Below are positions 34,660-37,728 of a stretch of DNA of 64,000 nucleotides, in pieces (within the stretch, counting starts at the first letter, position 1; the number at the start of each line of letters is the position of its first letter). Under the pieces are notes generated by a model. It was not told the origin of the DNA and searched no databases. It worked only from the letters and a program-made list of their open reading frames with translations. The stretch is from assembly GCA_015067845.1 (NCBI GenBank), contig SVLT01000008.1, forward strand, positions 1-64,000. Direction: 5' to 3'. The position numbers and the translations under genes are program-made. The stretch is from Oscillospiraceae bacterium. Its GTDB lineage: Bacteria; Bacillota; Clostridia; Oscillospirales; Oscillospiraceae.

Positions 34660-34909
34660 ACATTGCCGTATTTTTCAGCACCTTTGTGCCGTTGATGGCA
34701 TAATGAATGGAAACCAGTTGGACGGTTCGGCCCTCTAATTCCTCGCACAGGCTCAGATACTCTTCCAGACAGTCCCTGTCGGCAGGGGCCAGGGATTCCA
34801 AAATCTGAAAATACTGCTCGGACAGGGCATAGCTTTTTCCCAGCAGCTTCTGGCAACGGGCATCGTTTCTTCTTAACTGCGGAATGATCTCTTCCAAATC
34901 CTCAGGCAT
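34658..34909 (-). CDS. Small hypothetical protein (83 aa)
   Basis: MPEDLEEIIPQLRRNDARCQKLLGKSYALSEQYFQILESLAPADRDCLEEYLSLCEELEGRTVQLVS; helical, no clear family. Confidence 0.6.
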   Translation of the reverse strand: MPEDLEEIIPQLRRNDARCQKLLGKSYALSEQYFQILESLAPADRDCLEEYLSLCEELEGRTVQLVSIHYAINGTKVLKNTAM

Positions 34910-34932: not shown

Positions 34933-35093
34933 AAAATAAAAAGTGCGCAGCAGAGCTGCGCACGAAAAACGCAAGCCCCATTGCTGCGACACAATTCCAT
35001 CTACTCACAAAGAAGTATGCTGGGTAGAGCATGCATTTTTGCCAAAGCAAAAACGCACACTTCTTTACTGAGTAGGTTATTGAATTGTGTCGC
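34933..35093 (-). ncRNA. Putative free-standing structured small RNA, about 160 nt, family unknown
   Basis: Promoter TTGCAT-17-TATCAT (35128-35100); 13-bp perfect stem 34985-34997/35082-35094; second stem 35001-35020/35055-35075; terminator GTGCGCAGC-TCT-GCTGCGCAC-TTTTT at 34963-34938. Confidence 0.6.
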
Positions 35094-35186
35094 AAGAGTA
35101 TGATACCACACCCGTCAAGAGAATGCAAGGGAAATTTGCCGACAATACCTTCCCCCGGGAGAGGGTATTTTTTGCTGCACGCCAAA

Positions 35187-36729: not shown

Positions 36730-37728
36730 TTACTTCAAAGCTTCCTCAACAGCAACAGCCACGGAAACGGTCATGCCGACCATGGGGTTGTTACCTGCGC
36801 CCAGGAAGCCCATCATTTCCACGTGGGCAGGGACGGAGGAAGAACCTGCGAACTGTGCATCGCCGTGCATACGGCCCATGGTATCGGTCATGCCGTAGGA
36901 AGCGGGACCGGCAGCCATGTTATCGGGGTGCAGGGTACGGCCCGTGCCACCGCCGGAAGCAACGGAGAAGTACTTCTTGCCCTGCTCCATGCACTCTTTC
37001 TTGTAAGTGCCGGCAACGGGGTGCTGGAAGCGGGTGGGGTTGGTGGAGTTACCGGTGATGGAAACGTCAACGCCCTCGTAACGCATAACAGCAACGCCTT
37101 CGCGGACATCGTCACAGCCGTAGCAGTTAACGGCAGCGCGCTCGCCCTTGGAGTAAGCGATTCTGTCGACGATCTTCAGCTCGCCGGTGTAGTAGTCAAA
37201 CTTGGTCTGCACATAGGTGAAGCCGTTGATACGGGAAATGATCTGTGCAGCGTCCTTGCCCAGGCCGTTCAGGATGACACGCAGGGGCTCCTTACGGGCC
37301 TTATTGGCGGAGCGAGCGATGCCGATCGCGCCTTCAGCGGCAGCAAAGGACTCGTGGCCGGCCAGGAATGCGAAGCACTTGGTCTCGTCACGGAGCAGCA
37401 TTGCGCCCAGGTTGCCGTGGCCCAGACCGACCTTGCGGTCCTCAGCGACGGAGCCAGGGATGCAGAATGCCTGCAGGCCGATGCCGATGGCCTCAGCAGC
37501 CTCAGCGGCGCTCTTAACGCCCTTCTTGATGGCGATGGCAGCGCCTACGCAGTAAGCCCAAGCCACGTCCTCAAATGCGATGGGCTGAATGCCCTTGACG
37601 ATCTCATAGGGGTCGAAGCCCTTAGCGGTGCAGATGTCGCGGCAAGCCTCAACAGATTCCAGACCGTACTGAGCCAGGACACCGTTGATCTTGTCGATTT
37701 TTCTTTCGTAACCTTCAAACAAAGCCAT
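36730..37728 (-). CDS. GGGtGRT-type protein
   Basis: Contains KKYFSVASGGGTGRTLHPDN; adjacent to a NifU-like scaffold gene. Confidence 0.85.
   Translation of the reverse strand: MALFEGYERKIDKINGVLAQYGLESVEACRDICTAKGFDPYEIVKGIQPIAFEDVAWAYCVGAAIAIKKGVKSAAEAAEAIGIGLQAFCIPGSVAEDRKVGLGHGNLGAMLLRDETKCFAFLAGHESFAAAEGAIGIARSANKARKEPLRVILNGLGKDAAQIISRINGFTYVQTKFDYYTGELKIVDRIAYSKGERAAVNCYGCDDVREGVAVMRYEGVDVSITGNSTNPTRFQHPVAGTYKKECMEQGKKYFSVASGGGTGRTLHPDNMAAGPASYGMTDTMGRMHGDAQFAGSSSVPAHVEMMGFLGAGNNPMVGMTVSVAVAVEEALK

Follow-up and report, generated by a model that had tools for sequence, protein, structure and literature searches.

A family of promoter-fused leader RNAs, probably conditional terminators, in front of unrelated genes of a gut bacterial order

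The window analysed here, a 64,000-nt stretch of DNA from an Oscillospiraceae bacterium, carries on its minus strand an RNA element of about 155 nt that probably (at roughly 0.6) belongs to a new family of promoter-fused leaders with a conditional terminator. The family is wired like a conditional transcription terminator, that is, an attenuator or an orphan riboswitch. A covariance model detected the element in 142 of the 396 genomes examined from the order, with 6 to 16 matches per genome in 16 rich genomes (more candidates scored, and the weakest need checking) and one copy in the window's own genome. The family, its pairings, its fixed promoter and its position before genes are direct results of the computation. 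They would add a widespread orphan regulatory RNA, found in about a third of the sampled genomes of this gut order at up to 16 copies each, and the family seems to control many surface proteins in bacteria most of which are uncultured.

The layout of the locus was read directly on the minus strand. The promoter (35128-35100) consists of a -35 box, TTGCAT (35128-35123), a 17-nt spacer and an extended -10 element, TGTGGTATCAT, in which the hexamer TATCAT (35105-35100) is preceded by TGTGG. The predicted transcription start, at about G35093, agrees with the start at about 35093 in the original prediction. The whole element spans 35094-34938 and ends in a U-tract; it was delimited by its fold and by the covariance-model match to the locus (34937-35095, 134.5 bits). 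Its outer stem P1 is a perfect 13-bp helix of TGCGACACAATTC (35094-35082) and GAATTGTGTCGCA (34997-34985), followed by an internal loop, AATA (35081-35078), that is conserved in the family: of 135 elements, 87 had AATA at that site and 123 had ATA. The rod also contains the stretch GCUCUNUUUU. The 5' strand of P3/P4, GTGTGCG-TTTTT, lies at 35060-35049, and the A5 strand, GGCAAAAATGCATGC, at 35043-35029. The linker, GCAATGGGGCTTGCGTTTTT, follows P1 at 34984-34965, and the intrinsic terminator occupies 34963-34938, with GTGCGCAGC (34963-34955), the loop TCT, GCTGCGCAC (34951-34943) and TTTTT (34942-34938). A pattern scan recovered the terminator; the promoter pair fell below the scan cut-off and was backed by the homologues. 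The minimum free energy was -74.6 kcal/mol, compared with -44.2 (sd 4.1) for 200 dinucleotide shuffles, none of which was as stable (z = -7.4). Direct reading and this fold bore out the positions originally given for the promoter, the 13-bp stem, the rod and the terminator. The apical hairpin was found as described, with the amendment that its 5' strand GUGUGC has two possible 3' partners, GCAUGC or GCAUAC. The earlier description of the structure missed the linker, which can pair with the A5 strand and with the 5' arm of the terminator. An 83-aa ORF (34909-34658) begins 28 nt past the element, at 34909; for its product there was no Pfam match over the cut-off, and 296 other genomes of the order yielded no close homologue.

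Among 60 relatives, a DNA search recovered a dozen homologues that share this layout; they were aligned, and the alignment served to build the covariance model. Covariation, named beforehand in the original prediction as a refuting test, was present: this first alignment contained compensating changes, mostly in the outer stem, and eight pairs with double changes. When 398 genomes of the phylum were searched with the model (few of them from the order, about 390 from outside it), the window's own genome gave the sole match. The conserved terminator was present in records from uncultured Oscillospiraceae, Ruminococcaceae, Ruminococcus, Ruminiclostridium and Clostridia genomes, many of them from herbivore guts. 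Rfam 15 contained no family at or above its gathering threshold at the locus (only tRNA elsewhere in the window) or in 15 homologous loci, in line with the earlier claim of an RNA of a new kind, and permissive Rfam scans of the window and the homologues returned sub-threshold matches only, none of them meaningful. Ruminococcaceae, Faecalibacterium and Oscillospiraceae go unmentioned in two surveys of new bacterial noncoding RNAs (PMC11109978, PMC8632094), and nothing relevant on such an element was found in the open-licence full-text literature. The element thus represents a real RNA family that is apparently undescribed, although a family missing from Rfam 15 and from the open papers searched may still have been described elsewhere. 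One homologue (L011, 1500-1718, minus strand) had a leader about 60 nt longer, apparently with an extra rod hairpin, and kept the A5 strand, the linker and the terminator. Separately, a different short intergenic repeat in several relatives (L013, L014, L021, L025) shares the apical motif TTTGCATTTTTGCCAAAGGCAAAAAT.

The rod-like outline is also that of 6S RNA (RF00013), a long RNA with its own promoter, and the idea that the element is a divergent 6S RNA rests on this likeness. The element lacks the large central bubble, however, and its gene linkage and up to 16 copies per genome do not fit. The RF00013 covariance model had no match at the locus; its match in this genome lies on another contig (G000:C13:6283-6482; 54.9 bits against a cut-off of 46.4), and 6S RNA was found elsewhere in most relatives as well. 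The original statement that the element is not 6S therefore holds, and we consider a 6S identity vanishingly improbable.

Pairing was then counted over 135 elements. The first nine pairs of P1 were paired in 99.4% of cases, a count that, like those for P4 and the terminator, leans towards the covariance model; one pair was seen as GC, CG, TA and AT. Support for the P1 3' strand in the first alignment is independent of the covariance model. For P4, the 5' U5 strand paired better with its own A5 strand than with swapped ones, and none of 5000 permutations reached the native value. Two further helices lie outside the structure of the covariance model and are therefore not accounted for by selection with that model. 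One is an antiterminator, in which the linker pairs with the terminator 5' arm. A fixed-register column test of this helix failed, the anchor (the first pair of the folded tail) shifting between sequences, and a swap test in the best register was used instead. In it, linkers formed 10.1 of 11 pairs with their own terminators, 7.2 with shuffled tails and 9.8 with swapped tails. In a comparison of energies, the values were -14.7 kcal/mol for own and -13.1 kcal/mol for swapped pairs, and none of 5000 permutations reached the own value. Relatedness inflates these pairing statistics, since a reversed-linker control also gave some advantage of own over swapped pairs (z -4.8, compared with -11.8 for the true linker). 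In two elements (L106:1650 and L106:1852), the terminator core GCGUAGC had changed to GCGUUCC and the linker had changed in match to GGGAAU. The mean energies of terminator (-16.8 kcal/mol) and antiterminator (-16.4 kcal/mol, a crude estimate) were similar, as expected for a switch.

The other helix joins the linker to the A5 strand: the linker end UGCGUUUUU complements the apical A5 strand AAAAAUGCA. Four variable columns paired in 90-97% of the 135 elements, compared with 77-93% after shuffling, and for each column none of 1000 shuffles reached the native value. In the first of these columns, C-A combinations were absent though both letters were common. A tandem array in one genome (G399) showed a compensating change, with AAAGA as the A5 strand in three of four units and UCUUU in the linker, and copies without the 5' U5 strand retained the A-run and the linker U5. 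A triple helix (U-A-U) between A5 and the two U5 strands was also weighed; the flanking columns covary as ordinary linker pairs, which favours exclusive helices. These results support both helices, linker with terminator 5' arm and linker with A5 strand. In the window's own copy, the linker site is the A5 part at 35040-35032; there the linker falls 2 nt short of the usual length and forms a weaker antiterminator, with 8 of 11 pairs ungapped or 10 if a bulge is allowed.

The promoter is fused to the element. Of 121 copies, 111 had a -10 box whose end lay exactly 4 nt upstream of the element, 111 had TGn in front of that box, and 108 had a 17-nt spacer; the predicted start thus falls at the base of P1 and leaves no free 5' end. 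The other end lies close to genes. By a loose criterion, 110 of 122 copies were followed by an ORF with a ribosome site, and in 93 of the 122 it lay within 60 nt; the distance of the start codon from the U-tract peaked at 15-26 nt, the range into which most copies fall. Two features of terminator-type leaders are present, an intrinsic terminator shortly before the start codon and a conserved antiterminator that excludes it. No conserved leader peptide was indicated by a search of the rods, since only 10 of 135 contained an ORF of 6 or more codons with an SD sequence in front. The proteins encoded downstream do not form one homologous set. Among 96 of them, 20 had LRR_5 (BspA-like) repeats, four were AMP-binding ligases, three DUF6809 proteins, two ABC transporters and one an EcoRI-type methylase. 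About 60 of the 96 genes encode lipoproteins, proteins with the BspA-like repeat or other exported or membrane proteins; a crude N-terminal rule, which misfiles a few, assigned 27 as lipoprotein-like and 33 as signal-peptide- or membrane-like. Elsewhere in the window, a GGGtGRT-like gene lies at 36730-37728 on the minus strand, and the intergenic region behind it holds different accessory genes in nearly every examined genome of the genus. In another genome (G004), a leader of the promoter-fused terminator family lies near the GGGtGRT-like locus (L287).

Two readings had been offered originally, a free-standing small RNA and a terminating leader for the gene just downstream. The leader fits the family much better, because in most copies the start codon lies 15-26 nt past the U-tract, the genes differ and the antiterminator is conserved; the free-standing small RNA is only partly supported, the wiring being that of an attenuator or orphan riboswitch. 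It survives because tandem arrays keep complete upstream units without a gene of their own. Four genomes (G334, G399, G420, G174) had three to four units in a row, each with promoter, rod and terminator, and a clear gene directly behind the last unit only. Within arrays, the last 48 nt were mostly 90-98% identical (77% in two G174 pairs), and the rods were only 60-79% identical yet had a similar fold. Remnants of the downstream ORF between the units of three tandem pairs (L051, L083, L152) indicate an origin by duplication. Conservation of the fold in upstream units points to a role of the RNA that goes beyond the neighbouring gene, and the terminated RNA may act by itself as well. If it were an independent small RNA altogether, the terminated product of about 155 nt would act in trans, and the gene would be read only by leakage through the terminator. 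The fused promoter, the start at the stem base, the strong terminator, the fold retained across arrays and the few copies with no gene directly behind agree with this. The tightly spaced start codons behind most copies do not, nor does the conserved antiterminator, which is superfluous for a small-RNA terminator, and rods that diverge so fast offer a common target little conserved sequence; we regard such an RNA as unlikely, though it is the most serious of the competing explanations.

The conditional-terminator leader may be pictured as follows. Transcription would begin at the base of P1, and the nascent RNA would fold as a long rod (P1-P4) with its 5' end not free. Three strands would be held in common by competing helices: the A5 strand by P4 and the A5-linker helix, the linker by the latter and the antiterminator, and the terminator 5' arm by the antiterminator and the terminator. 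As long as P4 keeps A5, the linker would be free for the terminator 5' arm, the antiterminator would form and the gene would be read. When A5 captures the linker, the terminator would be free, an RNA of about 155 nt would be released and the gene would be off. The outcome would be set by the apical hairpin, which keeps or yields A5, presumably under the influence of a ligand, a protein or a physical signal on the rod. Switching itself, its direction and the existence of a signal are what we infer. Several points count against a switch: with the rod intact, the linker has to bridge its length before it can meet A5; rod sequences change quickly, within arrays too, which most ligand aptamers do not; a purely cis role leaves the complete upstream array units unexplained; and the window's own copy has the weaker antiterminator. 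The varied regulon, the conserved pairings and the compact size make signal and switching testable in vitro without culture of the host.

Known terminator/antiterminator riboswitches and orphan candidates share with this family a 5' leader position upstream of varied genes, an antiterminator and a terminator that exclude each other, tandem copies and a further helix competing for the switching strand. The element differs from them in its promoter at a fixed distance, its start at the stem base, its fast-diverging rod and its tandem units with a promoter and terminator each; it has no Rfam match and no known ligand. Riboswitches for c-di-GMP (RF01051, RF01786) control surface proteins and lipoproteins in Clostridia. 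The element has no Rfam match to them, and c-di-GMP was rejected as a universal partner, a GGDEF domain being absent in 15 of 30 element-bearing near-complete genomes. In LoaP-dependent leaders, a leader RNA hairpin controls termination in Firmicutes, whereas the targets of the element are mostly single genes; LoaP as a universal partner was likewise rejected, with 0 of 60 genomes over the curated cut-off. That these two checks gave no partner or ligand, and that no pathway is common to the downstream genes, would suit a fixed attenuator without a signal, in which expression is low and constant and terminator efficiency is adjusted by the alternative pairings. A constant terminator would need neither so large a conserved rod nor two competing helices, however, and this explanation seems to us rather improbable.

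The patchy distribution, the many copies per genome and the tandem duplication could also be those of a MITE-like DNA repeat or mobile cassette with an outward promoter, its hairpin serving transposition rather than regulation. Against this, the copies have a consistent orientation and tight spacing to start codons, promoter and terminator are kept though they lie outside the inverted repeat, copies within one genome differ strongly in the rod, and no clean empty site was found at the GGGtGRT locus, where the downstream region is hypervariable in the genus. The element is, moreover, almost absent from viral and plasmid collections, and such a cassette is very improbable. A phage or plasmid element was rejected in its own right: there was no pattern match in IMG/VR and no match in plasmids, and the matches labelled phage were two unannotated fecal scaffolds.

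Taken further, the conditional-terminator leader could define a new signal-responsive class confined to one gut order, in which a promoter, a sensor rod and a switchable terminator duplicate in tandem and stand before dozens of unrelated, mainly surface-protein genes, the terminated product perhaps being functional so that the element acts in cis and in trans. We put this wider proposal forward tentatively, at somewhat less than even odds. Arrays whose units diverge in sequence yet keep their structure are uncommon among cis-acting leaders, and they prompt one to ask whether the attenuated RNA is waste or product. The gene behind one four-unit array (L313, G334:C60) begins with MACFLIDFENESGKLLDGI and presumably resembles PIN-like nuclease proteins. 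In another genome (G182), the same 41-base end of a repeat, GAAATTGTCAAGAGAAAGTATACAATAAAAAAGTGCATAAT, joins the terminator loop of the family in five of six copies (L323, L324, L325, L326 and L328, on contigs C3, C8, C9, C16 and C28; L327 is also listed), always at a contig end. This repeat looks like a mobile element that targets the loops of terminator hairpins.
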